Origin: a virus
Length of the DNA: 29,088 nucleotides
Reading direction: 5' to 3' (one strand)
IMG/VR virus record: IMGVR_UViG_3300046003_006680
Location: 1-29,088 of that record
Shown: piece by piece, positions 12,630-24,253 of the stretch
Layout of the letters: each line of letters starts with the position of its first letter
Numbering within the stretch: position 1 is the first letter of the stretch
Notes under the pieces: model-generated
Told to the model about the DNA's origin: nothing
The model's input: the letters and a program-made list of their open reading frames with translations, nothing else
Database searches by the model: none
Translations under genes and position numbers: made by a program

Positions 12630-13082
12630 TTAAAGGTATTTTTTTCCTATTTTTTCAATAATACTTTTAGCTTCCTCTAGGGTAACTCGAAAAAATTCCC
12701 TTTGTTTATTTACACGTTCCGATTTAAAGAACTTGTGTACCTCGGATTCAATACGCTCACCTTTATAACATTTATAAGCCCATTCAACTTCATAACCTAA
12801 TGGAATTCCTGTTCCTCTACTTAATTGAATTGCTCTATTAAAGGGGTCACTTTTAGTATAACCGATTTTCAACATTCCCGGCATCGCAGGATTAGATAAG
12901 ACATAAACCCATTCATCACCATCCTTGCCAACATAAAGACCTCGTTTTTTACACGTGTAATACGTTAATTCATCCCAACCATCACTTAATGTTTTAATAG
13001 TAAAATATGCAGGGGGGTTATTTGAGTAATCTTCCGAACAAGGAATAAATTCTTTAGCTTCTTCTTCAGTTAAACGTTCCAT
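12630..13082 (-). CDS. T5orf172 / GIY-YIG-type domain protein
   Basis: This is a 150-residue protein. Residues about 55-145 carry the GIY-YIG-superfamily pattern of the T5orf172/MUG113 group: WVYVLSNPAMPGMLKIGYTK, then a DPFNRAIQLS helix, then ESEVHKFF and REFFRV. The YVLSN and KIGYT strands, the Arg of the following helix and the late Glu/His match nuclease-fold positions. Members are often called phage endonuclease-like, but activity is not assured. It may be a solo nuclease or a DNA-repair or host-interference protein. Its ATG region is four bases from the next upstream gene's stop. Confidence 0.75.
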   Translation of the reverse strand: MERLTEEEAKEFIPCSEDYSNNPPAYFTIKTLSDGWDELTYYTCKKRGLYVGKDGDEWVYVLSNPAMPGMLKIGYTKSDPFNRAIQLSRGTGIPLGYEVEWAYKCYKGERIESEVHKFFKSERVNKQREFFRVTLEEAKSIIEKIGKKYL

Positions 13083-13671: not shown

Positions 13672-13833
13672 TTAATAAAAAAATTGGTCTAGTTGATTTG
13701 GTTTAATTTTAACTTCTTTAGTACATTGGAAAATGTGTTTAAACATTTCAATTATAGACATTCCCCCACAAAGTAGGATTCCAACATAACCTAATGTAAG
13801 ATAAAATGGTATTTTGATTATTCTGTATATCAT
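13672..13833 (-). CDS. Small membrane protein, 53 residues
   Basis: ATG 13833 to TAA 13672 encodes MIYRIIKIPFYLTLGYVGIL, then LCGGMSIIEMFKHIFQCTKE. One transmembrane helix spans about residues 8-28, with a short soluble tail ending QFFY. The stop lies 38 nt upstream of the promoter of the next gene. I find no array-type promoter in front of it. It is plausible by composition and spacing only. Confidence 0.5.
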   Translation of the reverse strand: MIYRIIKIPFYLTLGYVGILLCGGMSIIEMFKHIFQCTKEVKIKPNQLDQFFY

Positions 13834-14033
13834 GGTATTCGTTTAATATACATATATATCCTGTTATAGACACGCATTTTTTTTGAAAAGAAGGATTTGG
13901 GATTTTTGGATTTTTACATTTTTTGCGGATTTTGAAATTTGGGGTACATTGTGGGGATATATAAGTTAAATATATAAGGATATACAATGTCGATGGGTGA
14001 AGAGTTGTAGTCGATGAGTTAAGTCATATAATT
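13834..14033. other. Intergenic stretch, no supported gene
   Basis: AT-rich, with T- and G-biased runs such as TTTTTTTTGAAAAG and GGATTTGGGATTTTTGG. A same-strand frame of 79 codons crosses it, but its composition (CTPNFKIRKKCKNPKIPNPS) and its spread over the neighbouring gene argue against coding. Nothing else is recognised. Confidence 0.5.
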
Positions 14034-14300
14034 CGCGGACCACCACACCCCGCGCCATATTGACGGCGGCGCGCGTGGGGCGGTATGACCATATTACGCC
14101 CATATATATACCGCCATACGCCGTACCGCCCGCCACCCTTATACCAGGGTCTCCGGTCTCGGGTCTTACAGGGTCACAGGGATCCCGGGTCACGGGTCAC
14201 CATGGGTTACAGGGTCACATGGTCACGGGTCTTACTGGGTCACAGGGTTACTGGGTTATCGGGTCTATTACCCGTGTTTTCTCCATCACCCGTATCTCCA

Positions 14301-14343
14301 GGGTCATCATGGTCACAGGGTCTCGGGTCACCATGAGTCACCA
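14301..14343 (+). repeat. 43-bp direct repeat, copy 1
   Basis: Exact match to 14405-14447, beginning GGGTCATCATGG and ending CATGAGTCACCA. The flanking bases differ on both sides, so the repeat ends are exact. The copy-to-copy offset is 104 bp. Confidence 0.95.
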
Positions 14344-14356
14344 TGGTTATCGGGTC

Positions 14357-14379
14357 ACAGGGTTACCATCACCATGGTC
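14357..14379 (+). repeat. 23-bp direct repeat, copy 1
   Basis: Exact match to 14522-14544. It begins ACAGGGTTACC and ends CACCATGGTC. Confidence 0.95.
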
Positions 14380-14404
14380 TCGGGTCACCAGGATCTTGGG
14401 TCAC

Positions 14405-14447
14405 GGGTCATCATGGTCACAGGGTCTCGGGTCACCATGAGTCACCA
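14405..14447 (+). repeat. 43-bp direct repeat, copy 2
   Basis: Second exact copy of the 43-bp unit at 14301-14343. It points to recent duplication or recombination inside the island. Confidence 0.95.
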
Positions 14448-14521
14448 ACACCCGGGTCTCGGGTCATAGGGTTATCGGGTCACCCATCACCCGGGATCTC
14501 GAATCTCCCATCACCCGGGTT

Positions 14522-14544
14522 ACAGGGTTACCATCACCATGGTC
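14522..14544 (+). repeat. 23-bp direct repeat, copy 2
   Basis: Second exact copy of the 23-bp unit at 14357-14379. Confidence 0.95.
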
Positions 14545-14568
14545 ATCGGGTCTTGGGTTACCCTGGTC

Positions 14569-14736
14569 TTACCACGGGGGGGTATTGCGTTTGGATCCTA
14601 CCAGCACACCATCTTTAAAATAGTAGAAGGTTAACACCATATCATCTCCCATAACCGAGATATCACCATCATCCAGGTTACCGTCTATATTATAGATTCG
14701 GGCTCTGTTCTGTTCTATAAATTCTTCCATGCTCAT
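14569..14736 (-). CDS. Small protein at the edge of the GC-rich island, 55 residues
   Basis: ATG 14736 to TAA 14569 encodes MSMEEFIEQNRARIYNIDGN, an acidic middle (LDDGDISVMGDDM), a strand-like VLTFYYFKDGVLVGSK, and ends RNTPPW. A full array promoter precedes it. The last residues are encoded by the C-rich margin of the island (CCCCCCCG), so the original C-terminus may have been replaced when the island arose. Family unknown. Confidence 0.65.
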   Translation of the reverse strand: MSMEEFIEQNRARIYNIDGNLDDGDISVMGDDMVLTFYYFKDGVLVGSKRNTPPW

Positions 14737-14749
14737 ATCTTATCATTTT

Positions 14750-14794
14750 TATTTATACCACAATATACGAAACAGATTTTAATAATTATATTCC
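14750..14794 (-). promoter_or_regulatory. Array promoter for the 55-residue gene
   Basis: GGAATA, TTCGTATATT (23 nt start to start), then GTATAAATA. The GGA box overlaps the stop-codon region of the gene ending at 14786. Confidence 0.75.
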
Positions 14795-15091
14795 CGTTTT
14801 AGCCGTTAATACATCATCCATCATATCAATTAATTTGCCTAAGTGACCTTTACTGGCTAGTTGGTCTAAATTATACTCCTCAACCTCCCAATATGAACCA
14901 CAACACTCCCAACCACATGGATATTCTACCAATGTACCTAAGTAAACCAGATCATCCTTAAAATCGATCCCTCGAATGGTAAGCCCATCACTGATCTCCT
15001 CATTCCATAATTCATCCGCAAAATCAATATCCTTGATCTTACCAAAACCCTCAAATCCAATATATGCCAATCCATATTCTACAGCTGTCAT
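14786..15091 (-). CDS. Acidic protein of unknown function, 101 residues
   Basis: Begins MTAVEYGLAYIGFEGFGKIK and contains EYPCGWECCGSYWEVEEYNL, with three clustered Cys (C-x3-CC) near residues 59-64. The composition is strongly acidic. It starts four bases after the stop of the 49-residue gene upstream, so the two share one promoter. The Cys cluster may bind metal or be incidental. I do not recognise the family. Confidence 0.7.
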   Translation of the reverse strand: MTAVEYGLAYIGFEGFGKIKDIDFADELWNEEISDGLTIRGIDFKDDLVYLGTLVEYPCGWECCGSYWEVEEYNLDQLASKGHLGKLIDMMDDVLTAKTGI

Positions 15092-15095
15092 GTCT

Positions 15096-15245
15096 TTATT
15101 TTTTATTTATTATACCAATGTTTACCTTATCAATTGTGTACTGGTTCAACTCACACATCTCATCAAATGAGATTAAACCATTATTGAATGCTTTGATCAA
15201 ATCTTTTAACTGTTGACCGTAACTACTTTGAATTTTAAATTTCAT
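15096..15245 (-). CDS. Small helical protein, 49 residues
   Basis: ATG 15245 to TAA 15096 encodes MKFKIQSSYGQQLKDLIKAF, then NNGLISFDEMCELNQYTIDK and a short basic end. It is a soluble helical protein, the first gene after its array promoter and in operon with the acidic gene starting at 15091. Function unknown. Confidence 0.65.
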   Translation of the reverse strand: MKFKIQSSYGQQLKDLIKAFNNGLISFDEMCELNQYTIDKVNIGIINKK

Positions 15246-15258
15246 ATCTTATCATTTT

Positions 15259-15303
15259 TAATTATACCACAATATACGAACCTGAGATATGATCTCTATG
15301 TCC
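15259..15303 (-). promoter_or_regulatory. Array promoter for the 15245/15091 gene pair
   Basis: GGACATAG box, 23 nt, TTCGTATATT, 3 nt, GTATAATTA. The start context is GATATG. Confidence 0.75.
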
Positions 15304-15331
15304 TTAAATTAAACCAGAAATCAATGTAATG

Positions 15332-15460
15332 TAGTCAGGACAGGATTCGAACCTGTATGATAACTTATGAGCAGGTCTTTCACCGGGTTTCTCGAGGTTA
15401 CTCTGCGTTATCTTTACTTTTAACCTTTATTCATAGCGTCTACCATTCCGCCACCTGACT
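15332..15460 (-). tRNA. tRNA-Leu-like gene of abnormal length (about 129 nt), possible intron
   Basis: On the minus strand the ends form a perfect 7-bp acceptor stem (AGTCAGG/CCTGACT) with discriminator A and no encoded CCA. The T arm is perfect (ACAGG-TTCGAAT-CCTGT). The D arm, TGGCGGAATGGTAGACGC, is the typical type II (Leu) form. About 79 nt lie between D arm and T arm where a Leu tRNA has about 35-40. TATGA and TCATA could form an anticodon stem enclosing about 60 nt, which would mean an insertion of about 53 nt. An alternative pairing is GATAAC with GTTATC. I cannot assign the anticodon. An array promoter stands 14 nt upstream of the mature 5' end. Confidence 0.7.
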
Positions 15461-15473
15461 ATATTTATTTTCT

Positions 15474-15518
15474 TATTTATACCACAATATACGAATCTTA
15501 TCTATGATCTCTATGTCC
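15474..15518 (-). promoter_or_regulatory. Array promoter driving the long tRNA
   Basis: GGACATAG, 23 nt, TTCGTATATT, 3 nt, GTATAAATA, then about 14 nt to the acceptor stem. No ORF follows, so this copy shows that the element acts at transcription. Confidence 0.8.
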
Positions 15519-15519
15519 A

Positions 15520-15645
15520 TTAATTAGCCCATATGATCGAGTGTTCAAATTTCAGGTAGTGAGGTGCGTACACAATCTCACAAGCCAATTCTTGTTTAAC
15601 TAAAAACAACAACATCATCATTTCATCCATTTCTTTCTTTCTCAT
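15520..15645 (-). CDS. Small protein, 41 residues, last of the micro-ORF chain
   Basis: ATG 15645 to TAA 15520 encodes a Met/Leu-rich start (MRKKEMDEMM, then MLLFLVKQELACEI) and ends FEHSIIWAN. Its ATG overlaps the stop of the preceding 29-residue ORF by four bases. It is the fourth link in a chain of ATGA-coupled ORFs from one promoter. Its stop is next to the GGA box of the tRNA promoter. Function unknown. Confidence 0.55.
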   Translation of the reverse strand: MRKKEMDEMMMLLFLVKQELACEIVYAPHYLKFEHSIIWAN

Positions 15646-15731
15646 AAAAATAAATCAGTTAAAAAATCCAAAATCAATACAGTTATTAACACTAATACCA
15701 TGCTAACCAAAATCCCCGTTACCACCATCAT
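15642..15731 (-). CDS. Hydrophobic microprotein, 29 residues
   Basis: Encodes MMVVTGILVSMVLVLITVLI then LDFLTDLFL, almost entirely one transmembrane helix. It overlaps its upstream and downstream ORFs by four bases each (ATGA). Size and hydrophobicity fit a phage membrane microprotein such as a small toxin, holin-like or regulatory peptide, but no family is recognised. Confidence 0.55.
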   Translation of the reverse strand: MMVVTGILVSMVLVLITVLILDFLTDLFL

Positions 15732-15808
15732 GAAAATAAACTCATTAAAATTAATTTAAATCCTATTAACAACATTGATAAACCAATACAAACTCCTATA
15801 CCTATCAT
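15728..15808 (-). CDS. Hydrophobic microprotein, 26 residues
   Basis: Encodes MIGIGVCIGLSMLLIGFKLI then LMSLFS, one transmembrane helix with a single Lys. The start overlaps the stop of the 23-residue ORF by ATGA. Part of the coupled chain 15520-15876. Confidence 0.55.
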   Translation of the reverse strand: MIGIGVCIGLSMLLIGFKLILMSLFS

Positions 15809-15876
15809 TTACTTATTACTTTTAAAATTAATACTACATTCAACAACAAACTTACATAAACAATTGTTCCTATCAT
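15805..15876 (-). CDS. Hydrophobic microprotein, 23 residues
   Basis: Encodes MIGTIVYVSLLLNVVLILKV then ISK, a transmembrane helix with a basic C-terminal end. It is the first ORF after an array promoter, with the ATG 15 nt beyond the TATA box, and the first of four ATGA-linked ORFs. On its own this would be weak evidence for a gene. The chain makes it credible. Confidence 0.55.
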   Translation of the reverse strand: MIGTIVYVSLLLNVVLILKVISK

Positions 15877-15890
15877 TTTCTTATATTTTT

Positions 15891-15935
15891 TAATTATACA
15901 TCAATATACGAATCATATTTTGTTACTCTCTGTCC
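15891..15935 (-). promoter_or_regulatory. Array promoter for the micro-ORF chain
   Basis: GGACAG box, 23 nt, TTCGTATATT, 3 nt, GTATAATTA. The GGA box lies in the last codons of the gene ending at 15923. Confidence 0.7.
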
Positions 15936-16111
15936 TCAATTAATTTTTGTAACTCATAAAATTTATCTAATAAATCATCATCACCTAAATTCTCTAACAT
16001 ATTCTCAAACAAATCTTGTACATCAATACTTACTACAGTTCCGTTATCTAATATTAAATCTGTTTCACTTGAATCTCTATTATCTGTTTCTTTAATGTTA
16101 ACTCTTTTCAT
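15923..16111 (-). CDS. Acidic small protein, 62 residues
   Basis: Begins MKRVNIKETDNRDSSETDLI and ends LQKLIEDRE. Highly acidic, predicted strand then helices, with no membrane segment or Cys. A single-gene unit behind its own promoter. No family recognised. Confidence 0.6.
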   Translation of the reverse strand: MKRVNIKETDNRDSSETDLILDNGTVVSIDVQDLFENMLENLGDDDLLDKFYELQKLIEDRE

Positions 16112-16125
16112 GTCTTATCGTTTTT

Positions 16126-16170
16126 TAATTATACATCAATATACGAACTAAATTTTAATTCTGTTATTCC
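16126..16170 (-). promoter_or_regulatory. Array promoter for the 16111 gene
   Basis: GGAATAAC, 23 nt, TTCGTATATT, 3 nt, GTATAATTA. Confidence 0.75.
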
Positions 16171-16371
16171 TTAACAAAACTTATCTAACAATCCTTTATT
16201 TTCCAATTTTATCAAACAATTATTAACATTAAAAGGATTTTTTCTTTTATAATTTTTCAATTCTTCATTTACTAAATCTAAAAACTCACTTTCATCATTA
16301 TTATCTACAAAATCAACTTCATCAAATCCATTTATAAACAAATTTAATTCTTTAATACTTTCAAATTTCAT
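16171..16371 (-). CDS. Acidic small protein, 66 residues
   Basis: Begins MKFESIKELNLFINGFDEVD and continues FVDNNDESEFLDLVNEELKN. Soluble and helical, ending GLLDKFC. One gene per promoter. The MKFE/MKLE start and acidic composition resemble several other products of this array, suggesting related selection rather than proven homology. Confidence 0.6.
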   Translation of the reverse strand: MKFESIKELNLFINGFDEVDFVDNNDESEFLDLVNEELKNYKRKNPFNVNNCLIKLENKGLLDKFC

Positions 16372-16385
16372 ATCTTATCGTTTTT

Positions 16386-16430
16386 TAATTATACACCAAT
16401 ATACGAACTAAATATCAAATTTACTATTCC
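16386..16430 (-). promoter_or_regulatory. Array promoter, overlapped by the 3' end of the upstream gene
   Basis: GGAATAG, 23 nt, TTCGTATATT, 3 nt, GTATAATTA. The upstream 36-residue ORF is translated through TTCGTATATT and takes its TAA stop from the TATA box. Confidence 0.75.
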
Positions 16431-16499
16431 CACAATCACACCGTACATTAATACTGAACTTAACATCACACCCCAAGTCACGAAAATTACTTTTGTCAT
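16389..16499 (-). CDS. Small membrane protein, 36 residues
   Basis: ATG 16499 to TAA 16389 encodes MTKVIFVTWGVMLSSVLMYG, then VIVGIVNLIFSSYIGV, nearly all one or two short transmembrane segments. The last five codons (SYIGV, stop) are the TTCGTATATT and TATA boxes of the next promoter. Its own promoter is at 16530-16574. Function unknown. Confidence 0.55.
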   Translation of the reverse strand: MTKVIFVTWGVMLSSVLMYGVIVGIVNLIFSSYIGV

Positions 16500-16529
16500 T
16501 TACTTTTTTTAAATTTATATTATTTTCTT

Positions 16530-16574
16530 TATTTATGCTATAATATACGAAAGCAGCTTTAATTAGCTGCTTCC
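16530..16574 (-). promoter_or_regulatory. Array promoter with hairpin spacer for the 36-residue gene
   Basis: GGAAGC, 23 nt, TCGTATATT preceded by T, then GCATAAATA in place of GTATAAATA. The spacer is the inverted repeat at 16551-16572. Confidence 0.7.
16551..16572 (-). terminator. Perfect hairpin in promoter spacer
   Basis: AAGCAGCT, 6-nt loop, AGCTGCTT, followed on the minus strand only by TCG. It may terminate the AT-hook-like gene transcript, but the T-tract is short. It fills the spacer of the following promoter exactly. Confidence 0.5.
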
Positions 16575-16599
16575 ATTATTATTTATTAACTGCTTATTC

Positions 16600-16929
16600 C
16601 TAAGCAGCTATTTCATCAGTTACACTCTTAATCATTTTAGGTCGTCCTCTTTTAACTAAACCTAACTCTCTTTTTTCATTTAACTCTTTAATCCTTAACT
16701 GTCTTACACTATTTTCATTTACAGGACGTCCTAATTTCAACTCTCCGTTTACTCTTTTACTCTCTAACTCACTAATCCTTAACTGTCTTACACTGTTTTC
16801 ATTAACAGGACGTCCTAACTTTAACTCTCCGTTACTACGTTTTAACTCTAACTCTTTAATCCTTAATTGTCTTACACTGTTTTCATTTACAGGACGTCCT
16901 AATTTTACACTTTTAACTACTTTTTTCAT
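16600..16929 (-). CDS. Tandem-repeat, AT-hook-like basic protein
   Basis: This 109-residue protein is built of three 28-residue repeats: KLGRPVNENSVRQLRIKELE, then LKRSNGEL, and close variants. A final KRGRPK motif closes the series. The DNA repeat period is 84 bp, each copy carrying the palindrome AGGACGTCCT (at about 16722, 16806 and 16890). GRP flanked by basic residues is the core of AT-hook minor-groove motifs, and the last copy matches it best. The strong basic charge, regular VRQLR helix and AT-rich genome suggest a DNA-binding or DNA-bridging protein. It could instead be an RNA binder. Its stop is TAG. Confidence 0.75.
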   Translation of the reverse strand: MKKVVKSVKLGRPVNENSVRQLRIKELELKRSNGELKLGRPVNENSVRQLRISELESKRVNGELKLGRPVNENSVRQLRIKELNEKRELGLVKRGRPKMIKSVTDEIAA

Positions 16930-16967
16930 AACTTTTCTTTTTTTTAAATTTAATTATTTATTTTCTT

Positions 16968-17012
16968 TATTTATACTGTAATATACGAATTATAATTTAA
17001 TTATGTTATTCC
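16968..17012 (-). promoter_or_regulatory. Array promoter for the AT-hook-like gene
   Basis: GGAATAAC, 23 nt, TTCGTATATT, 3 nt, GTATAAATA. A longer A/T-rich leader of about 40 nt precedes the GTTATG start. Confidence 0.75.
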
Positions 17013-17191
17013 TCAATTATTTCACTTTCACTAGTAAATACTTTAAAACATTCAAAAAACATTCTTTCAACTTCTTCAAACTCTTTTTCAAACAATTCAC
17101 ACTCATACATTTCTTTAATTAATTCATTTAAATCATTAACTAAAAAAAAGTCATTTGCATCATCAATATTAACTACTAAATAATTTTTCAT
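17006..17191 (-). CDS. Very acidic small protein, 61 residues
   Basis: Begins MKNYLVVNIDDANDFFLVND and has acidic amphipathic helices through ECELFEKEFEEVERMFFECF. Two to three Cys are not in a metal-site pattern. Single-gene unit. The acidity is reminiscent of DNA-mimic or host-binding phage proteins, but that is speculation. Confidence 0.6.
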   Translation of the reverse strand: MKNYLVVNIDDANDFFLVNDLNELIKEMYECELFEKEFEEVERMFFECFKVFTSESEIIEE

Positions 17192-17205
17192 TTTTATATT
17201 TTTTA

Positions 17206-17250
17206 AATTTATACTGTAATATACGAATTAAATTTTAATTAGCTTAATCC
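17206..17250 (-). promoter_or_regulatory. Array promoter for the 17191 gene
   Basis: GGATTAAG (variant box), 23 nt, TTCGTATATT, 3 nt, GTATAAATT. Confidence 0.7.
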
Positions 17251-17493
17251 TTCAATTTTATCAATTAGTATTTTCATTAATTGTCCTTCGTTATATTCTT
17301 CTAATTCTTTAAAAGTAAACGTCCTATCTTCAAAGTCTAACCAACCGTATTCAAAATCTTTTACTTCTTCTATTAAATAAACCTCTTCAGAGTCAAAACA
17401 TATTTCATAAAAACTAAAATCTTCATCTAATTCTTCTCTACAAAGATCTTCATTAATTAAATCTTCTTTATCTTTAAATTCTTTTAATTTCAT
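17239..17493 (-). CDS. Very acidic protein, 84 residues
   Basis: Begins MKLKEFKDKEDLINEDLCRE. More than a quarter of residues are Asp or Glu, with strand-like DFSFYEICFDSEEVYLIEEV and a C-terminal helix ending IDKIEGLS. No membrane segment. Family unknown. Confidence 0.6.
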   Translation of the reverse strand: MKLKEFKDKEDLINEDLCREELDEDFSFYEICFDSEEVYLIEEVKDFEYGWLDFEDRTFTFKELEEYNEGQLMKILIDKIEGLS

Positions 17494-17508
17494 AACCTTT
17501 ATTTTCTT

Positions 17509-17553
17509 TATTTATACTACAATATACGAATTAAATTTTGTTTCGCTTATTCC
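17509..17553 (-). promoter_or_regulatory. Array promoter for the 17493 gene
   Basis: GGAATAAG, 23 nt, TTCGTATATT, 3 nt, GTATAAATA. The leader ends AAAGGTTATG, giving one of the few SD-like AAAGG sequences. Confidence 0.75.
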
Positions 17554-17805
17554 TTAATATACAATATATAATATAAAATTATTTTTAATAACTTTTTTTA
17601 TTATATTATCTTTATATTCTTTTTCTATATTTTTATCATCTTCTTCTCTAATAAAAACACTACAACATTCAATTATATTAAAACTATTATTATTAAAATC
17701 AATTTCATAATATTCACTATCATTTATATCAACAATAAATTCAAATTCATTTAAATTCTCATTAATAAAAATTTCAACTTCATTAATAATTTCTTTTACA
17801 TTCAT
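17554..17805 (-). CDS. Acidic/Asn-Ile-rich small protein, 83 residues
   Basis: Begins MNVKEIINEVEIFINENLNE and contains FIVDINDSEYYEIDFNNNSF. It ends in a hydrophobic NFILYIVY. Extremely AT-rich codons. Single-gene unit behind its own promoter. Function unknown. Confidence 0.55.
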   Translation of the reverse strand: MNVKEIINEVEIFINENLNEFEFIVDINDSEYYEIDFNNNSFNIIECCSVFIREEDDKNIEKEYKDNIIKKVIKNNFILYIVY

Positions 17806-17819
17806 AACTTTTCTTTTTT

Positions 17820-17864
17820 TATTTATACTGAAATATACGAAATCTCATTTAATAAACTTAGTCC
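17820..17864 (-). promoter_or_regulatory. Array promoter for the 17805 gene
   Basis: GGACTAAG, 23 nt, TTCGTATATT, 3 nt, GTATAAATA. It forms the right border of the small-gene series before the noncoding gap. Confidence 0.75.
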
Positions 17865-17879
17865 TTAAACAGAACGATA

Positions 17880-18060
17880 GCCTACATCTCTTGTGCAAGC
17901 TTTTTACTTTATAATCCAAGCGCCACGTTTGGCTATAATCGCGGTGTGAAGTTTTCAATGATCGCCTTACATACTCATTCACACACGAATACTGATGTTT
18001 CTACCGTTTTTGTTTACTAAGTGGCGCCTTTCTGTGTCCTAAAACTGTTGCGTTGCCCGT
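17880..18060 (-). ncRNA. Candidate structured RNA in a 400-bp noncoding gap
   Basis: No frame here looks coding, and base composition is more balanced than in the flanks. Two nested perfect complementary pairs are visible: GCGCCAC/GTGGCGC (18021-18027 with 17920-17926) and GTGTGAA/TTCACAC (17978-17984 with 17944-17950). These would fold about 110 nt into a long stem with an inner hairpin. Strand and ends are guesses, the minus strand being chosen because all genes lie on it. It is not recognised as tRNA, tmRNA, 6S or RNase P RNA. Confidence 0.35.
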
Positions 18061-18139
18061 TTCTATTTCCATTGCGGGAGATACCATCGTACTCATTAAT
18101 ACATATGGTAAGATACGGGAAATATTCCAGGTATCCCAA

Positions 18140-18227
18140 TTTTTTTTAATATCTTTTTAATTTCTTTTTAACATTCTTTTAATTTTTTTCCACTATGTTC
18201 ATGTAATGTTCACGTAATGTTTACAAG
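18140..18227. repeat. 11-bp-phased array: T-tracts then three iteron-like units
   Basis: Eight consecutive 11-mers can be read on the plus strand. Four are T-rich (for example ATCTTTTTAAT, TTCTTTTTAAC, ATTCTTTTAAT), one is transitional (TTTTTTCCACT), and three are related (ATGTTCATGTA, ATGTTCACGTA, ATGTTTACAAG). T-tracts repeated near the helical period usually bend DNA. The last three resemble iterons. This may be an origin or a curved upstream promoter region for the RNA candidate at 17880-18060. Confidence 0.55.
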
Positions 18228-18283
18228 TTTTGTATATACTTTTGGAAAGACATGTAAAGGTGCGTGGCTGCTGCATGGAAGGG

Positions 18284-18406
18284 TTATCCCCAATATCTCC
18301 TTACAATATCCATTGCATTCCCCATTTTCCACATACCATTAACGATTTTCATTCTTATAATATCCCTGTTGATAATCTTCGTTCCCCATGTTGATCTACT
18401 TGTCAT
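18284..18406 (-). CDS. Small basic protein, 40 residues
   Basis: ATG 18406 to TAA 18284 encodes MTSRSTWGTKIINRDIIRMK, then IVNGMWKMGNAMDIVRRYWG. Basic and helical, with three Trp. A variant array promoter lies 12 nt upstream, the best support for it. A 14-bp stretch of its 5' part (18370-18383) is repeated exactly at 18473-18486. Family unknown. Confidence 0.45.
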   Translation of the reverse strand: MTSRSTWGTKIINRDIIRMKIVNGMWKMGNAMDIVRRYWG

Positions 18407-18417
18407 ATGTTAATCTT

Positions 18418-18462
18418 TCTTTATACGTTAATATACGATAATCTCCTTGGTTTTAATAGTCC
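18418..18462 (-). promoter_or_regulatory. Variant array promoter for the 40-residue gene
   Basis: GGACTA, 23 nt, ATCGTATATT (first T changed to A), 3 nt, GTATAAAGA. The boxes keep their spacing despite the substitutions. Confidence 0.6.
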
Positions 18463-18520
18463 CTATGTTTGATGATAATCTTCGTTTTATACACGTTTAA
18501 TCATTTAATTATCCGTTGTT

Positions 18521-18670
18521 TTATAATTTATCTAGTTCAAATTCAATTGATGATTTCATATTCAGTAATGCCTGGACATATCCTACTCTATAGTTATCAT
18601 CTCCAATTAATGGTGATTCCATTATCATTTCGTTATTCTCCTTTAGTAATCTCTCTAGTATTTCTTTCAT
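18521..18670 (-). CDS. Small helical protein, 49 residues
   Basis: ATG 18670 to TAA 18521 encodes MKEILERLLKENNEMIMESP, then LIGDDNYRVGYVQALLNMKS and ends FELDKL. It overlaps the upstream gene by ATGA. The ligand-free helical look and the NYRVGYVQALLNMK segment are common in small phage proteins, but I know no function. Confidence 0.65.
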   Translation of the reverse strand: MKEILERLLKENNEMIMESPLIGDDNYRVGYVQALLNMKSSIEFELDKL

Positions 18671-18867
18671 GCTTTTTTATTAAATGTTTCGTTATAGTAT
18701 TCATCTGCTGAGTTATAATCTCCTTTAGTGAGTGAATTATACCAGGAATTTTTAATCTGCTCTCTCTCCATTTCTAAGGCTTGGTCAATTATCAACTTAT
18801 TATAATTAGGTGATGTTTCATCTAAGTTTAAATGCTCAATCAACCATTCTACTGCTGTTTTTTTCAT
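18667..18867 (-). CDS. Small phage protein 'MKKTAVEWL', 66 residues
   Basis: Begins MKKTAVEWLIEHLNLDETSP and contains IIDQALEMEREQIKNSWYNS. This arrangement (an amphipathic start, then A-x-E-M-E-x-x-Q-I) is a recurring unknown protein in phages of many hosts. It overlaps the next gene by four bases and follows the 51-residue gene by eight. Confidence 0.7.
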   Translation of the reverse strand: MKKTAVEWLIEHLNLDETSPNYNKLIIDQALEMEREQIKNSWYNSLTKGDYNSADEYYNETFNKKA

Positions 18868-18875
18868 GTTTTATT

Positions 18876-19031
18876 TTAATACATTAAATAATCACCTATG
18901 TTTTCTCCAATTCCTACTCCATTAAATGTTACCTCGTAACTTGGATCCATTCCACCATACATTACAGCCTCTATTAATTCCTCTAATGTGTTAAATTCTA
19001 CTGTGTAATAACTACAATCTAAACTATACAT
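18876..19031 (-). CDS. Small protein, 51 residues
   Basis: ATG 19031 to TAA 18876 encodes MYSLDCSYYTVEFNTLEELI, then EAVMYGGMDPSYEVTFNGVG and ends GDYLMY. Mixed alpha/beta with an acidic helix. Its ATG has the GATATG context and lies 19 nt after the previous stop. It is the second gene of a four-gene unit from the promoter at 19279-19323. Confidence 0.6.
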   Translation of the reverse strand: MYSLDCSYYTVEFNTLEELIEAVMYGGMDPSYEVTFNGVGIGENIGDYLMY

Positions 19032-19050
19032 ATCTTTTTATTTTCTTTAT

Positions 19051-19269
19051 TTAATAATTAAAAACAAACTCTACTACTTCCTCTGAGTTAAAAGAGTTAA
19101 ATATTCCATCTTCACTCTCATCACCTTCCCCATAAACAATATACTCAGCAATTCCTTTTTTATTTTGAGTAAAACATGTTATTAATAAAGATTTAAACTC
19201 AATACTATTCCCTGTAAAACCAAAATCTTTTAATTTTTTAATTTCTAAATTTAATTCTTCTTTTTTCAT
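19051..19269 (-). CDS. Small acidic protein, 72 residues
   Basis: Begins MKKEELNLEIKKLKDFGFTG and continues NSIEFKSLLITCFTQNKKGI, then IVYGEGDESEDGIFNSF. First gene of the 19269-18521 operon. Soluble alpha/beta. Family unknown. Confidence 0.6.
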   Translation of the reverse strand: MKKEELNLEIKKLKDFGFTGNSIEFKSLLITCFTQNKKGIAEYIVYGEGDESEDGIFNSFNSEEVVEFVFNY

Positions 19270-19278
19270 ATGTTTCTT

Positions 19279-19323
19279 TATTTATACCTTAATATACGAA
19301 ATTTATTTTAAATAACTTATTCC
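19279..19323 (-). promoter_or_regulatory. Array promoter for the four-gene unit 19269-18521
   Basis: GGAATAAG, 23 nt, TTCGTATATT, 3 nt (AAG), GTATAAATA. Confidence 0.75.
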
Positions 19324-19529
19324 TCTGCTTTTATTCTATTAAATACTTCCTGTATATTTTCAATTACTTTAAATCCACCATTGTTATGTGTTGTGGTTCC
19401 TATTACGGTGTATTTTTTTGGCTCACGATTAAAATCTCTTTCTTCTACCTCATATAAATGTCCTATCATATCTATGTTTATGTAGATAGATTTTTTGTCA
19501 CTTAATGTTGTTACTTTAATTGTTCTCAT
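19317..19529 (-). CDS. Small beta-rich protein, 70 residues
   Basis: Begins MRTIKVTTLSDKKSIYINID, then MIGHLYEVEERDFNREPKKY, a likely small beta-barrel-like fold ending NRIKAEE. There is no promoter in the 16-nt gap upstream, so it is co-transcribed with the gene starting at 19842. Its last codons (GAGGAATAA) form the GGA box of the next promoter. Confidence 0.65.
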   Translation of the reverse strand: MRTIKVTTLSDKKSIYINIDMIGHLYEVEERDFNREPKKYTVIGTTTHNNGGFKVIENIQEVFNRIKAEE

Positions 19530-19545
19530 AACTTTTTCTTTTTAT

Positions 19546-19842
19546 TTATCTGCTAATTACTGATTCGATTGCTTCTGTTCCTGAGTTAATCATTGCTATA
19601 ACTCCACCCCACATATTTTCATCTGCTTCCCACTCTATTTCGTGTTTTTCATGTTTCATTTGCCAATTTGATATTGCAAATCCGTTACCATCTAGTTTAA
19701 AATCACCATCACTGTTTTTCTTAAATCTTAAATGTCCAACATTATCACACATACATGATATTGTTTTGAATATTACTTCCCTTGCTCCTTCTTTAATAGT
19801 TAATTTAGGTGCGTTTAATCTTAATTCTCTGTATTTGCTCAT
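19546..19842 (-). CDS. Unknown protein, 98 residues
   Basis: Begins MSKYRELRLNAPKLTIKEGA and has two Cys near the middle (SCMCDNVGHLRFKKNSDGDF), then WQMKHEKHEIEWEADENMWG. Cys and His spacing could suggest metal binding but does not fit a standard finger. First gene of a two-gene unit. Confidence 0.65.
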   Translation of the reverse strand: MSKYRELRLNAPKLTIKEGAREVIFKTISCMCDNVGHLRFKKNSDGDFKLDGNGFAISNWQMKHEKHEIEWEADENMWGGVIAMINSGTEAIESVISR

Positions 19843-19854
19843 AACTTTTCTTTT

Positions 19855-19899
19855 TATTTATACTGTAATATACGAAAAGAAGCTTACGCTTCTATTTCC
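19855..19899 (-). promoter_or_regulatory. Array promoter with hairpin spacer for 19842/19529 genes
   Basis: GGAAATAG, 23 nt, TTCGTATATT, 3 nt, GTATAAATA. The spacer contains the inverted repeat at 19878-19893. Confidence 0.75.
19878..19893 (-). terminator. Hairpin at gene end, fused to next promoter
   Basis: AGAAGC-GTAA-GCTTCT followed by TTTCG on the minus strand. The TAA stop of the gene ending at 19884 is in the loop. The same sequence recurs at 20365-20380. Confidence 0.55.
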
Positions 19900-20093
19900 T
19901 TAATTAATTCACTTTCTTTAACTGTATAAGTCATAACCATTTCCCCTCTATAATTGTCATGTTTAACAACATAAGTAATTTCATCACCTTCCATTCTTAA
20001 ATTTTCCAATTTATTTATCCAACAATCAAAAATAGTACATTTCACTTTTGGAAATCCTATTATTTTAACTTTATTACCAATTTCAAATTTCAT
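19884..20093 (-). CDS. Small beta-rich protein, possible SH3/KOW-like fold
   Basis: This 69-residue protein begins MKFEIGNKVKIIGFPKVKCT, then IFDCWINKLENLRMEGDEIT and VVKHDNYRGEMVMTYTVKES. The G-x-x-V-x-I-x-G start and short beta strands resemble small SH3-like barrels common in phages. The end ELIKEIEA is nearly the same as the end of the gene at 20371 (KLIKDIEA), because both run into the same stop-codon hairpin. Confidence 0.65.
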   Translation of the reverse strand: MKFEIGNKVKIIGFPKVKCTIFDCWINKLENLRMEGDEITYVVKHDNYRGEMVMTYTVKESELIKEIEA

Positions 20094-20105
20094 AACTTTT
20101 TTCTT

Positions 20106-20150
20106 TATTTATACCACAATATACGAAATTTATTTTAATACTTTTAGTCC
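20106..20150 (-). promoter_or_regulatory. Array promoter for the 20093 gene
   Basis: GGACTAAA, 23 nt, TTCGTATATT, 3 nt (GTG), GTATAAATA. Confidence 0.75.
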
Positions 20151-20330
20151 TTAACTATTAAATTCTTCTTTTATAGAAAATGTAATAAAAAATTCCCCAT
20201 CCATTCCATCATAATCACTCATTTCAAAACCTAATTTTTCACCTAATTCCTTTAATTGTAAACATAATTCAATGTTTTTTTCACTGATGTGATTTAATCG
20301 TAATCCTTTTACTAAATTTTCATTTTTCAT
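20151..20330 (-). CDS. Small acidic protein, 59 residues
   Basis: ATG 20330 to TAA 20151 encodes MKNENLVKGLRLNHISEKNI, then ELCLQLKELGEKLGFEMSDY and FFITFSIKEEFNS. A helix-then-strands arrangement with one Cys. Behind its own promoter. Family unknown. Confidence 0.65.
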   Translation of the reverse strand: MKNENLVKGLRLNHISEKNIELCLQLKELGEKLGFEMSDYDGMDGEFFITFSIKEEFNS

Positions 20331-20341
20331 ATTATCATTTT

Positions 20342-20386
20342 TATTTATACTGTAATATACGAAAAGAAGCTTACGCTTCTATGTCC
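20342..20386 (-). promoter_or_regulatory. Array promoter with hairpin spacer for the 20330 gene
   Basis: GGACATAG, 23 nt, TTCGTATATT, 3 nt, GTATAAATA. Confidence 0.75.
20365..20380 (-). terminator. Hairpin at gene end, fused to next promoter
   Basis: AGAAGC-GTAA-GCTTCT, identical to 19878-19893. The loop again supplies the TAA stop of the preceding gene. Confidence 0.55.
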
Positions 20387-20487
20387 TTAATTAGCTTTTT
20401 TACCAAAAACAATATCTCGTCCTTTACATCATTGTGTATAATGCTTTCATTAACAAGTTCCTTTAAATAGGTTTGTAGATCTTCCAT
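20371..20487 (-). CDS. Small helical protein, 38 residues
   Basis: ATG 20487 to TAA 20371 encodes MEDLQTYLKELVNESIIHND, then VKDEILFLVKKLIKDIEA. Acidic amphipathic helices. The GTTATG start context and an upstream promoter support it. Its C-terminal DIEA is encoded by the hairpin shared with 20093's gene. Confidence 0.55.
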   Translation of the reverse strand: MEDLQTYLKELVNESIIHNDVKDEILFLVKKLIKDIEA

Positions 20488-20497
20488 AACTTTTATT

Positions 20498-20542
20498 TTT
20501 TATACAATTAATATACGAAATCAAATTGGATAACCTATGTCC
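20498..20542 (-). promoter_or_regulatory. Array promoter for the 38-residue gene
   Basis: GGACATAG, 23 nt, TTCGTATATT, 4 nt (AATT), GTATAAAAA. One of the 4-nt-gap variants. Confidence 0.7.
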
Positions 20543-20604
20543 CTAGCTCCAAAATCTAGCTCTTCCATTTGTTCAAGTATAAACAATGCCTCTTCATTAC
20601 TCAT
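20521..20604 (-). CDS. Tiny acidic protein, 27 residues
   Basis: ATG 20604 to TGA 20521 encodes MSNEEALFILEQMEELDFGA, then RDIGYPI. It overlaps the upstream 67-residue gene by ATGA and ends one base from the TTCG box, so the next promoter's GGA box and spacer are coding. Credible from coupling, but short. Confidence 0.45.
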   Translation of the reverse strand: MSNEEALFILEQMEELDFGARDIGYPI

Positions 20605-20804
20605 ATTGTAGCGAATTTATCTTTTTTAGTCATTAATTTAACTTTACCAATCACTTCGTCAATTTGCATATCAACAAATCCTTGTGTCATAAACGGTCGT
20701 TTACCAGCTGCTTCTGCATTTGCTATTTCTTGCTTTAATGTATTTTTATACATTTCTAATCCTGTGATAATTGCATGTGATTCAAATCCATTTAACTTTG
20801 TCAT
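20601..20804 (-). CDS. Small helical phage protein, 67 residues
   Basis: Begins MTKLNGFESHAIITGLEMYK and continues NTLKQEIANAEAAGKRPFMT. A two-helix protein of a type frequent in phage small-gene regions. It lies behind a hairpin-spacer promoter and is coupled to the 27-residue ORF. Function unknown. Confidence 0.65.
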   Translation of the reverse strand: MTKLNGFESHAIITGLEMYKNTLKQEIANAEAAGKRPFMTQGFVDMQIDEVIGKVKLMTKKDKFATI

Positions 20805-20840
20805 AACTTTTTTCTTTTTTTTAATTTAAATTAATTTCTT

Positions 20841-20885
20841 TATTTATACTTTAATATACGAAAGCCCTTTTAATTAAGGGCTTCC
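20841..20885 (-). promoter_or_regulatory. Array promoter with hairpin spacer for 20804/20604 genes
   Basis: GGAAGC, 23 nt, TTCGTATATT, 3 nt, GTATAAATA. Confidence 0.75.
20862..20883 (-). terminator. Perfect hairpin in promoter spacer
   Basis: AAGCCCTT, 6-nt loop AATTAA, AAGGGCTT, then TCG. Nearly the same hairpin occurs at 26811-26832. Confidence 0.55.
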
Positions 20886-20899
20886 TTTATTTATTTTAA

Positions 20900-21253
20900 T
20901 TAATCTTCACTTGGGGTGAATTCGGAAGAACTTACTTCTTCATCATCTACACTTACAAATCCTTCAAGTACTGCCTCGACATGTTGTATTATTTCTCTAA
21001 TATCTACATCTACTCTACTTAATTCAATTCTATTATCATAATTTAATTCAAACTCAGCACTATCTAAATCAACTAAGTCATCACTATTATTATCTAATAT
21101 CGATTCCAATTTGCTAGATATATTACTAGCTAGTTCTTCTGTAAGTCCTCCTGTTTCAATTTGCTTAATCAATTCAATAACTTTATCAATATCAACTTGT
21201 GATGATAATGCCTTTGCTGCGTTTAATTGTTCAATTAAATTTTCTTTTTTCAT
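20900..21253 (-). CDS. Acidic protein, 117 residues
   Basis: Begins MKKENLIEQLNAAKALSSQV and has helices to about residue 55, then a very acidic second half (DNNSDDLVDLDSAEFELNYD, then VDDEEVSSSEFTPSED). No membrane segment. The acidic tail could be disordered or a binding surface. Family unknown. Confidence 0.65.
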   Translation of the reverse strand: MKKENLIEQLNAAKALSSQVDIDKVIELIKQIETGGLTEELASNISSKLESILDNNSDDLVDLDSAEFELNYDNRIELSRVDVDIREIIQHVEAVLEGFVSVDDEEVSSSEFTPSED

Positions 21254-21266
21254 AATTTTTCTTTTT

Positions 21267-21311
21267 TATTTATACTGTAATATACGAAATTTATTTTAAT
21301 TTTAATATTCC
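21267..21311 (-). promoter_or_regulatory. Array promoter for the 21253 gene
   Basis: GGAATATT, 23 nt, TTCGTATATT, 3 nt (ACA), GTATAAATA. The GGA box lies in the short untranslated stretch 21312-21359, where I see only an 8-codon ORF. Confidence 0.75.
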
Positions 21312-21359
21312 TTTATTTAACATTTCATTTAATCTTTTAATAGTATTGTGTATAGTATC

Positions 21360-21569
21360 TCATTCCCCTTCAGAAGCATTTTTAGCAAATTCTTCTAACG
21401 AATCAAATTCATTATCACAATATGCTTCATCAACAAACATAGCAGCATCAGTAATTAATATCTCTTCATCACTCATCAAATCCCAATTATCATAATCAAT
21501 TGAGTCTTCCTCAGCAAATCTATTATTAATTAATTCTAATTCTTTTTCTTTTACAAATTCTAATTTCAT
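21360..21569 (-). CDS. Acidic small protein, 69 residues
   Basis: Begins MKLEFVKEKELELINNRFAE and continues EDSIDYDNWDLMSDEEILIT. It ends EEFAKNASEGE. Strongly acidic and helical. Single-gene unit. Family unknown. Confidence 0.6.
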   Translation of the reverse strand: MKLEFVKEKELELINNRFAEEDSIDYDNWDLMSDEEILITDAAMFVDEAYCDNEFDSLEEFAKNASEGE

Positions 21570-21601
21570 AACTTTTCTTTTTTTATTTTTATTTATATTT
21601 A

Positions 21602-21646
21602 TATTTATACTTTAATATACGAAAAGGAGCTTATGCTCCTTCGTCC
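21602..21646 (-). promoter_or_regulatory. Array promoter with hairpin spacer and expanded TATAAA run
   Basis: GGACGAAG, 23 nt, TTCGTATATT, 3 nt, then GTATAAATA continuing as a TATAAA-type repeat for about three units before the A-rich leader. Confidence 0.75.
21624..21641 (-). terminator. Perfect hairpin in promoter spacer
   Basis: AAGGAGC-ATAA-GCTCCTT then TTCG on the minus strand. Confidence 0.55.
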
Positions 21647-21650
21647 TTTA

Positions 21651-21989
21651 TTATAATTCGTTATTTCTAAATAATAATTTCAATTCATTTTCTATTCCAT
21701 TAGTAATTAACTCTGCTTCTTTTTCTTCAATTAATTTATTCAAATCAATTCCTAATTCTAATAGTTGTGCTTTGAATTGTTTAAATGATGTATAATCTGA
21801 ATCAATATCTATTCCTAGAAATTTTACATTATCAATATCTATACCTAAATCCATATCAACAATTAATTTACCTAATTTATCTCTACTAATACAGGCCTGA
21901 TGTATTAATGTTAACTCAATTGCATCGTTGTTACCTAATTTTACTTCTGTTTGGAAGCCTACCATTAATGTTTTGCTTGTAATTTTCAT
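21651..21989 (-). CDS. Unknown protein, 112 residues
   Basis: Begins MKITSKTLMVGFQTEVKLGN and contains an Asp/Ile-rich centre (LIVDMDLGIDIDNVKFLGID) and a charged helical end. Probably soluble alpha/beta. One gene per promoter. Family unknown. Confidence 0.65.
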   Translation of the reverse strand: MKITSKTLMVGFQTEVKLGNNDAIELTLIHQACISRDKLGKLIVDMDLGIDIDNVKFLGIDIDSDYTSFKQFKAQLLELGIDLNKLIEEKEAELITNGIENELKLLFRNNEL

Positions 21990-22005
21990 AACTTTTTTCT
22001 TTTTT

Positions 22006-22050
22006 TATTTATACTATAATATACGAAATCTCTTTTACTTATTTTATTCC
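22006..22050 (-). promoter_or_regulatory. Array promoter for the 21989 gene
   Basis: GGAATAAA, 23 nt, TTCGTATATT, 3 nt (ATA), GTATAAATA. Confidence 0.75.
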
Positions 22051-22051
22051 T

Positions 22052-22360
22052 TTAATTAAAATTTTGTAATTTGCTACAAATTGTTTCCCAAAGTAACTCA
22101 TATTTTATCTCAAATTCCGTTGCTGGTGTGTCTTTAAAGCTTTCTCTTGTTATCTTTAATGACGATTTCCATTCAACATCGTTCATTATAGAATCGATCA
22201 GTTCCACCAACTCATTGTCTGATTTTCCTTTCAATATAGATTCCGAGTATCCCCAATCCTCTTCCATTTCTTCTATCGAGTCGTAATTTAATAATTCTTC
22301 TTGTAATCTTACATCTCTTTCAAACTGTAATTCTTTTAATGCTGATTCTTTAAATTTCAT
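22052..22360 (-). CDS. Acidic helical protein, 102 residues
   Basis: Begins MKFKESALKELQFERDVRLQ and continues EELLNYDSIEEMEEDWGYSE. All-helical, with a C-terminal ETICSKLQNFN. The start has the GATATG context. Family unknown. Confidence 0.65.
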   Translation of the reverse strand: MKFKESALKELQFERDVRLQEELLNYDSIEEMEEDWGYSESILKGKSDNELVELIDSIMNDVEWKSSLKITRESFKDTPATEFEIKYELLWETICSKLQNFN

Positions 22361-22373
22361 ATCTTATCTTTTT

Positions 22374-22418
22374 TATTTATACTATAATATACGAATTCTC
22401 TTTTATATCTCTTATTCC
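22374..22418 (-). promoter_or_regulatory. Array promoter for the 22360 gene
   Basis: GGAATAAG, 23 nt, TTCGTATATT, 3 nt (ATA), GTATAAATA. The GGA box overlaps the stop of the gene ending at 22412. Confidence 0.75.
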
Positions 22419-22561
22419 TTTATTAAGGTTAAAGTAGATGTCTTAACAATGTAGCGTCGAGTTTTATTTTGAATAGCACACGTTGTGTCGCTTTCTTTAT
22501 ACCACACCAACGTCCAAACACCTGAGTATGATAGGCATTTTACTTTGTCGCCTTGTTTCAT
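22412..22561 (-). CDS. Small beta-rich protein, 49 residues
   Basis: ATG 22561 to TAA 22412 encodes MKQGDKVKCLSYSGVWTLVW, then YKESDTTCAIQNKTRRYIVK and ends LTLIKE. The G-D-K-V-K-C opening and alternating hydrophobics suggest a single SH3/KOW-like barrel. It overlaps the upstream gene by ATGA. A similar opening is seen in the gene at 19884. Confidence 0.65.
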   Translation of the reverse strand: MKQGDKVKCLSYSGVWTLVWYKESDTTCAIQNKTRRYIVKTSTLTLIKE

Positions 22562-22803
22562 TTTTGTAGGTATTCTCTTTTATATCTATCTAAAACCATT
22601 TCTTGAGCTTGTTTATTTGCTTCTAATTCCATGTTTGGTTTAATTTGCATTTCTGCCATTATTTCTACTAAAACACCCCATGTTCGTCTTGATAGTGTTG
22701 TGTATCGATGATCAGCACCAAAATTGTCGTTGTACTGTTGTAGATCTAAATAAGCTACTGCTTCTTTATTTTGTAGTAATTCAATAATATCTTTCTTTTT
22801 CAT
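22558..22803 (-). CDS. Unknown helical protein, 81 residues
   Basis: Begins MKKKDIIELLQNKEAVAYLD and contains YNDNFGADHRYTTLSRRTWG, then a helix ending DRYKREYLQK. Soluble. First gene of a two-gene unit. Family unknown. Confidence 0.65.
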   Translation of the reverse strand: MKKKDIIELLQNKEAVAYLDLQQYNDNFGADHRYTTLSRRTWGVLVEIMAEMQIKPNMELEANKQAQEMVLDRYKREYLQK

Positions 22804-22809
22804 AACCTT

Positions 22810-22854
22810 TATTTATACTATAATATACGAATTCTATTTTAATACTTTTAGTCC
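22810..22854 (-). promoter_or_regulatory. Array promoter for 22803/22561 genes
   Basis: GGACTAAA, 23 nt, TTCGTATATT, 3 nt, GTATAAATA. The leader ends AAAGGTTATG. Confidence 0.75.
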
Positions 22855-23048
22855 TCTAATTCTTCTATAAATTTAACTCCAATAATTTTTTCTGATTTAA
22901 AATCAACTTCTTCACTTATTTGTTCTCCATCATCTGCTTCTGCACCGGAAAATATCAATTCTTTTGCTTCTTCCTTTGAGTTCGCTTCAACAACATATTG
23001 AATAGTTTTTGTTGCTTTTACTTTTGTTGTAATTCTAAATACTTTCAT
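22848..23048 (-). CDS. Small protein resembling DpnD/PcfM-type domain
   Basis: This 66-residue protein begins MKVFRITTKVKATKTIQYVV, then EANSKEEAKELIFSGAEADD. The strand, V-x-A-x-S-x-E-E-A, helix pattern is shared with DpnD/PcfM-like small domains of phages and mobile elements, whose role is unclear. It ends IEELED, whose codons carry the next GGA box. Confidence 0.6.
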   Translation of the reverse strand: MKVFRITTKVKATKTIQYVVEANSKEEAKELIFSGAEADDGEQISEEVDFKSEKIIGVKFIEELED

Positions 23049-23060
23049 AACTTTTTTCTT

Positions 23061-23105
23061 TATTTATACTATAATATACGAAAGAGCTTCTGTTAAAGCT
23101 CTTCC
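23061..23105 (-). promoter_or_regulatory. Array promoter with hairpin spacer for the 23048 gene
   Basis: GGAAGAGC, 23 nt, TTCGTATATT, 3 nt, GTATAAATA. Confidence 0.75.
23082..23103 (-). terminator. Perfect hairpin in promoter spacer
   Basis: AAGAGCTT, 6-nt loop, AAGCTCTT then TCG. The end of the gene finishing at 23093 runs through it. Confidence 0.5.
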
Positions 23106-23344
23106 TTTATTTCTTTAAGATAATCTCTAATTTCCACTGCATTCTCGTAATCTTCTACATCTGGAAGTAATGAGTATTCTAGCATGTCCTGTAACAATGC
23201 TGCAAAGTCTCCATTATGTTTATATTCAAGTTGGTTTTGCAAAAATAGTTTTTGTTCCCAGGGAATATTTGAGTTGTATATTTCCGGGTGCATTTTACCT
23301 TTCCATAATAATTTAACTGCTTCATCCATATTAAATCCCTTCAT
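23093..23344 (-). CDS. Unknown helical protein, 83 residues
   Basis: Begins MKGFNMDEAVKLLWKGKMHP and continues EIYNSNIPWEQKLFLQNQLE. An in-frame ATG five codons later (MDEAV) would avoid the 14-nt overlap with the upstream gene and is an equally good start. Helical and acidic at the C-terminus. Confidence 0.65.
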   Translation of the reverse strand: MKGFNMDEAVKLLWKGKMHPEIYNSNIPWEQKLFLQNQLEYKHNGDFAALLQDMLEYSLLPDVEDYENAVEIRDYLKEIKEEL

Positions 23345-23747
23345 TAATTGCTACTTTTAAATCAACTACTGGTCCACCATCCGAAACTAGCCAAATGTTA
23401 TCTTTAGTAAAGCAATAAATAAATTCTTCACATGATTGATAGATACAATTAAATAAATTAGGAACATCTTGATTTATTTGTTGATCAAATGGTTCACCTC
23501 TATCACGGTGATATGCAACTACAACACCCTTTTCAGGTTGAGCAAAGCTATGTTCACCTGTTGGATTTACATTTTCTGCTATGTATGAAATGCTCCCTAA
23601 TGCTATTAATTGTTCTACTTTTGAACGATTAGTGTAGTGTTTCTGTAATACTGCTCCAACACCATCTATCATACCATCAAAATGGCAATAAATTGATGTA
23701 GTTGTTCCGTCTTGGTTTTCAATTCCTATTCTACTTCTTGTTGACAT
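23331..23747 (-). CDS. Conserved phage protein 'MSTRSRIGI', 138 residues
   Basis: Begins MSTRSRIGIENQDGTTTSIY, then CHFDGMIDGVGAVLQKHYTN, and later VVAYHRDRGEPFDQQINQDV. The M-S-T-R-S-R-I start, Y-C-H-x-D-G and G-V-G-x-x-L-x-x-H-Y motifs are shared by an unknown protein widespread in phages and plasmids of several phyla. Conserved Cys, His and Asp suggest a catalytic or metal site, but no activity is known to me. Confidence 0.75.
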   Translation of the reverse strand: MSTRSRIGIENQDGTTTSIYCHFDGMIDGVGAVLQKHYTNRSKVEQLIALGSISYIAENVNPTGEHSFAQPEKGVVVAYHRDRGEPFDQQINQDVPNLFNCIYQSCEEFIYCFTKDNIWLVSDGGPVVDLKVAINEGI

Positions 23748-23756
23748 AACTTTTCT

Positions 23757-23801
23757 TTTTATATAATTAATATACGAAATTTATTTTACTTAAACTTGTC
23801 C
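23757..23801 (-). promoter_or_regulatory. Array promoter for 23747/23344 genes
   Basis: GGACAAGT, 23 nt, TTCGTATATT, then AATTATATAAAAAG: the G of the GTATAA box is replaced. Confidence 0.7.
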
Positions 23802-24190: not shown

Positions 24191-24208
24191 AACTTTTTTT
24201 CTTTTTTT

Positions 24209-24253
24209 AATTTATACTGTAATATACGAAATCTATTTTATATCTCTTATTCC
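24209..24253 (-). promoter_or_regulatory. Array promoter for the coiled-coil gene
   Basis: GGAATAAG, 23 nt, TTCGTATATT, 3 nt (ACA), GTATAAATT. Confidence 0.75.

Follow-up and report, generated by a model that had tools for sequence, protein, structure and literature searches.

Minisatellites (VNTRs) occur beside control regions, as in mitochondrial control regions, and phages of the T7 type carry arrays of imperfect 7-bp words (SRL and SRR) that flank the ends of the genome. The origins of large T4-like phages other than T4 are, to our knowledge, mostly unmapped. The GC clusters of yeast mitochondria (PMC4464245) and the palindromic microsatellites of Fusarium mitochondria (PMC7218506) occur scattered over many sites and are thought to be mobile. 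The locus that we describe here recurs in a large group of uncultured T4-like phages; it was noticed in an IMG/VR fragment of 29 kb that comes from a T4-like myophage and has a GC content of ~28% (hereafter the window, i.e., the whole stretch of 29,088 nucleotides that was analyzed), and it consists of a conserved leader and an adjoining array of short words. We give a probability of about 0.5 to the reading that this locus is a replication origin or control region with an optional minisatellite alongside. A sequence-only reading of the same DNA had stated that it knew of no such phage element, and our literature searches gave no description either; nothing comparable is described in phages within the sources searchable for this analysis, and a BLASTN search of phage and plasmid sequences with the island plus the DNA around it returned no match.

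A baseplate wedge gene and a gp25-like gene, the second named from its sequence, are present in the window, and queries with the baseplate and HD-phosphohydrolase proteins gave the Flavobacterium phages "immuto" as the closest cultured phages, at 44-46% identity. Relatives (n = 80) were fetched via the HD-phosphohydrolase protein, which is encoded ~2 kb from the island, so that sampling was independent of the island itself. Elsewhere in the window, Rfam calls a tRNA at 15332-15460 (minus strand) that spans 129 bases and so exceeds the usual tRNA length, possibly through an intron or a long variable arm; ARAGORN does not report it. The gene at 16600-16929 (minus strand) contains 84-bp tandem repeats that encode repeated LGRPVNENSVRQLRI units, and repeat genes resembling it occur beyond the leader in two relatives (L071 and L215).

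The GC content is 57% at positions 14034-14575 versus 21-34% across most of the window, which bears out the abrupt GC-rich block in an AT-rich phage described from the sequence alone; both pairs of exact direct repeats reported there, of 43 bp and 23 bp, were also located. Repeated 8-mers amount to 62% versus 9% in dinucleotide shuffles (z = 21). About 30 GGG runs had been noted on the plus strand; the array contains 30 GGGT words versus 7 ACCC words. Other claims required revision. The many short palindromes are a real excess, but a modest one (z of 2.2-2.8). What had been taken for a single repeat block does contain the repeats but is not one unit, being a conserved leader followed by a word array (Table 1). 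The C-terminal codons of the adjacent 55-aa gene, for which we found no Pfam or PHROG match, are not supplied by the island: the array-free relatives L007 and L009 keep the same ...NTPPW-stop ending, and the array starts just beyond the stop codon.

Table 1. Features of the locus (feature, window positions, strand, description)
First small gene after leader	13672..13833	-	53 aa
Left AT-rich half of non-coding leader region	13836..14033		Conserved blocks ATATACnTATATA, TATATAAnGATATA and GTCGATG; alignment of 30 relatives
Leader	14034..14143	+	GC-rich; one copy per genome
Box A	14057..14078	+	ATATTGACnnCnnCGCGCRTGG; nearly invariant in 29 aligned sequences
Box B	14101..14111	+	CATATATATAC; core almost unique to leader in each genome
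Word array (minisatellite)	14144..14568	+	7-9-bp words GGGTCAC/GGGTTAC/GGGTCTC/CCATGG in one orientation; length varies among relatives
43-bp exact direct repeat, copy 1	14301..14343	+	
43-bp exact direct repeat, copy 2	14405..14447	+	
23-bp exact direct repeat, copy 1	14357..14379	+	
23-bp exact direct repeat, copy 2	14522..14544	+	
55-aa gene	14569..14736	-	Conserved phage family (NIDGNL...FYYF...W-stop); stop codon borders array
Last promoter-like motif before array	14763..14771	-	TTCGTATAT

The leader is the constant part of the locus. A 102-bp leader probe matched all 22 related contigs searched, the leader is kept in about 47-48 distinct sequences, and the one record without a leader match (L097) had entered through another pattern. 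The box A pattern was present in 50 stretches of the viral collection, a few of which are chance matches, and the box B word was single in 9 of 11 further records. Alignment of the leader gave no covarying base pairs, and a test of the leader as a structured non-coding RNA gave neither covariation nor an Rfam match. Since the near-invariant boxes A and B lack covariation, the alignment indicates conservation of the leader at the level of DNA sequence rather than RNA structure, and we rejected a folded RNA on the same ground. Sigma-70 promoters and terminators at the locus were also rejected, as neither exceeded chance, and so was box B as a general late promoter, since it is almost unique to the leader.

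The array, by comparison with the leader, is optional, and many relatives contain the leader only. Its words are imperfect and 7-9 bp long; TRF reports period 8 and its multiples, among others, at 14155-14484, and autocorrelation peaks at 8, 16, and 24. As expected of a minisatellite or VNTR, the units lie head to tail at one locus, and array length differs between close relatives with collinear flanks (the window and L006, the window and L007, and L052 and L054). Overall, array length ranges from 0 to about 1,110 bp among close relatives with flanks that are 90-97% identical. For example, L052 and L054 contain 0 and 1,113 bp of array, respectively, with left flanks that are 96% identical, and alignment of the window with L006 places 17 gaps within the array and none in the 418 bp of flank and leader. 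Box A lies 73-122 bp from the stop codon of the conserved 55-58-aa gene where the array is scant or missing, 141-162 bp from it where the array is short, and 407-1,201 bp from it where the array is long; in four further relatives (L080, L197, L199, and L205) distances of 326-1391 bp proved to be due to inserted genes and not to arrays. A tree of the HD gene (36 rows) requires at least 11 switches between array and no array, a count that recombination could inflate, and its well-supported sister pairs L052/L054 and L006/L007 differ in array state.

Word vocabulary also varies by lineage (GGGTCAC/GGTTACC, GGGTCT, ATACCTC, or ATCCATCC, with a period of 8 or of 7/9), and orientation is constant: GGTCAC, AGGGTC, and GGTCTC are present and their reverse complements absent in every array (GTGACC, 0). 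In three relatives (L071, L035, and L185) the array adjoins the leader and the 55-aa gene was not found there, which argues that arrays are anchored on the leader. The array-free junction, ACCAGGGTCTTACCATGG, contains words able to seed the array of the window, and we infer from this likeness that the array may have grown from them. A gene with a T5orf172/MUG113 domain lies at 12630-13082 of the window (minus strand) and near the leader in most relatives too; we rejected it as the cause of the array, since it occurs with or without one.

The leader also forms the downstream border of an early gene block that is rich in a promoter-like motif, TTCGTATATTnnnGTATAAATA. This motif stands ahead of nearly every small gene upstream (window 14700-29000, minus strand) and, judging from its placement, is probably the early promoter of the group. 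The window contains 33 copies, 32 of them on the early-gene side and none antisense, and across 27 loci the motif ends at the leader, with 167 copies in 78 kb upstream versus 12 in 104 kb downstream.

Because nearly all genes are on one strand, total GC skew of whole contigs is uninformative, and we used skew at fourfold-degenerate sites instead. In two contigs that are largely collinear around the circle, G011 and G017 (174 and 166 kb), the biggest combined drop in GC and AT skew is at the leader or within ~2 kb of it, and the biggest opposite step is close to the antipode (G011, 72-74 kb; G017, 82-84 kb). Ranks, computed with 12-kb flanks and with G024 left out since its leader is too near the contig end, place the top combined step <2 kb from the leader in G011 (rank 1 of 174), G017 (1 of 167), G003 (1 of 52), G015 (1 of 27), and G025 (1 of 72). 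The leader is thus the strongest fourfold-site step in 5 of 6 testable contigs, although the relatedness of these contigs means that they are not independent tests; in G022 the peak of the step lies 3-6 kb downstream. Shuffling of gene order matched the observed step in 0 of 5000 trials in G011 and in 5 of 5000 in G017, and AT skew shifts gradually across >100 kb. Either an origin or a terminus would fit this pattern, in which the signs of the GC and AT skews (purine-type) do not set the polarity, and codon preferences of early and late gene classes could also cause the step. Among the options listed by the sequence-only reading, a replication-linked site is the one best supported by the fourfold-site skew and the shuffles, and a protein-binding array is a further possibility.

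Two rivals of the leading reading are serious. The first, a minority explanation that we nevertheless regard as possible, is that the leader is an early/late transcription boundary or regulatory region unrelated to replication and that the array grew as a neutral repeat in a gap that tolerates it. The halt of the promoter-like cluster at the leader is what such a boundary would look like, and the differing composition of early and late genes could produce a skew step, whereas no terminator-like structure exceeds chance, box B was not found ahead of other genes, and a simple switch of gene class predicts neither the gradual change in AT skew nor the reversal of the step near the antipode.

The second serious alternative, which we consider somewhat doubtful, is that the array is a functional iteron field for a phage initiator or another protein, maintained by selection. 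In favor of it, immuto, 44-46% identical in two proteins, has phased words in the same orientation beside an AT-rich core, with a similar vocabulary (GAGACCC, GTAACCC, and GATACCC). Immuto lacks the leader, but its largest non-coding gap (732 bp, 66,230-66,962) coincides with the top skew step of the genome, a weak step that 33 of 5000 shuffles reach and that has no sawtooth. In this gap (16230-16960 of L282), two ACCCGT-type arrays, mostly with 11-13-bp spacing, flank ~320 bp of AT-rich DNA; the ~20 ACCC/ACCTG words have the strand, with respect to the genes, that the ACCC words of the window have, and a comparable word density occurs nowhere else on that strand of immuto. The arrays are identical in three immuto isolates, and a candidate change of array length between isolates was rejected, the 44-bp difference being outside the array. 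Two small ORFs annotated in the gap may not be genes.

As in an iteron origin, an AT-rich region adjoins the words in both cases, i.e., the conserved 13836-14033 here and the core in immuto. In the clade of the window, however, the array is missing in many relatives, and its words and spacing drift among lineages (8 bp, 7/9 bp, ATACCTC, ATCCATCC), whereas spacing in immuto is regular. GGGTYACN arrays in unrelated phages were, in addition, no commoner than control words, and we rejected shared GGGTYACN iterons beside VapE-like genes, seen at two loci, since control words, the first set of which partly overlaps the pattern, were about as common. The AT-rich Microcystis phage Mel-JY01 (L312, about 134.6-135.1 kb and 123.8-124.4 kb) has GC-rich palindromic words in its non-coding gaps, for example TACCCCCGGGGGGTATT, of a different kind from those of the window. 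Two unrelated phage contigs (L220, 11986-12104, and L229, 12802-12872) end, on one side of the stretch fetched, in perfect (GGGTCACC)n and (GGGTCACT)n microsatellites.

The remaining explanations are unlikely. An invading selfish repeat inserted next to the leader, as proposed from the sequence alone, would account for the foreign, GC-rich composition and for the optional presence among close relatives, but it is very improbable, given that each large contig with an array has it at one site, always adjoining the leader and in a single orientation, with no target duplication beyond the word itself and no fixed-length unit; copies at several genome sites, as in mobile GC clusters or REP-like elements, were not found. 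Equally improbable is the packaging option of that reading, i.e., a pac or concatemer-processing site like the short repeats near T7 genome ends: imperfect repeats on a 7-bp scale do lie beside a unique element, but in four contigs 35-40 kb separate the site from the gene for the large terminase subunit, and two contigs are collinear through the site. An assembly artefact or contaminant is scarcely credible, and the outcomes that the sequence-only reading had named as refuting did not occur. In favor of an artefact, arrays do break assemblies, as 13 loci end <400 bp on the array side and 0 on the other side, but true repeats are expected to give this too. Against it, a second assembly (L005) aligns to the window, through the array, along 15,914 bases and differs at 2 of them; the locus recurs in dozens of relatives in graded array versions with continuous leader and flanks; and the leader pattern gave 27 matches in 85,000 bacterial and archaeal species genomes, which look like chance because none has box B.

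If the locus is a replication origin, the leader, at the downstream border of the early block, would direct initiation, probably by binding a putative phage protein at boxes A and B. The array would then be a minisatellite that grew from the short word at the edge of the leader, expanding and collapsing by slippage and unequal recombination as forks start, stall, or restart there, and it may be dispensable. More tentatively, such an origin could carry an optional, self-expanding field of initiator-like words that is born repeatedly at the origin edge, drifts, and collapses, and that in some lineages, such as immuto, becomes 12-bp-phased iterons; were this so, the group would show how iteron origins arise. 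The locus provides a precise candidate origin for an entire clade, and there is one for the cultured phage immuto as well; close relatives with and without the array are a natural experiment in the birth, growth, and loss of a repeat field where genomes are small and dense. Metagenome assemblies also break at the array, which is relevant to the recovery of genomes.

Compared with known systems, the locus shares with T7 SRL and SRR an array of imperfect 7-bp words in a phage, but it is internal and far from the terminase gene. The mitochondrial repeats of yeast and Fusarium are likewise optional, GC-rich or palindromic, and found in compact AT-rich genomes, whereas the phage array has one anchored site and one orientation. 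Iteron origins of plasmids and phages resemble it in having short words in direct orientation that adjoin an AT-rich core at one place in the genome (phased at ~12 bp in immuto), but here close relatives have arrays of anything between 0 and about 1.1 kb, and the word sequence drifts. Mitochondrial control-region VNTRs are similar in being tandem, in one orientation, and subject to fast indel change beside a conserved control element, and the present array differs from them in belonging to a T4-like phage, in being GC-rich within AT-rich DNA, and in consisting of mixed 7-9-bp words rather than one unit.
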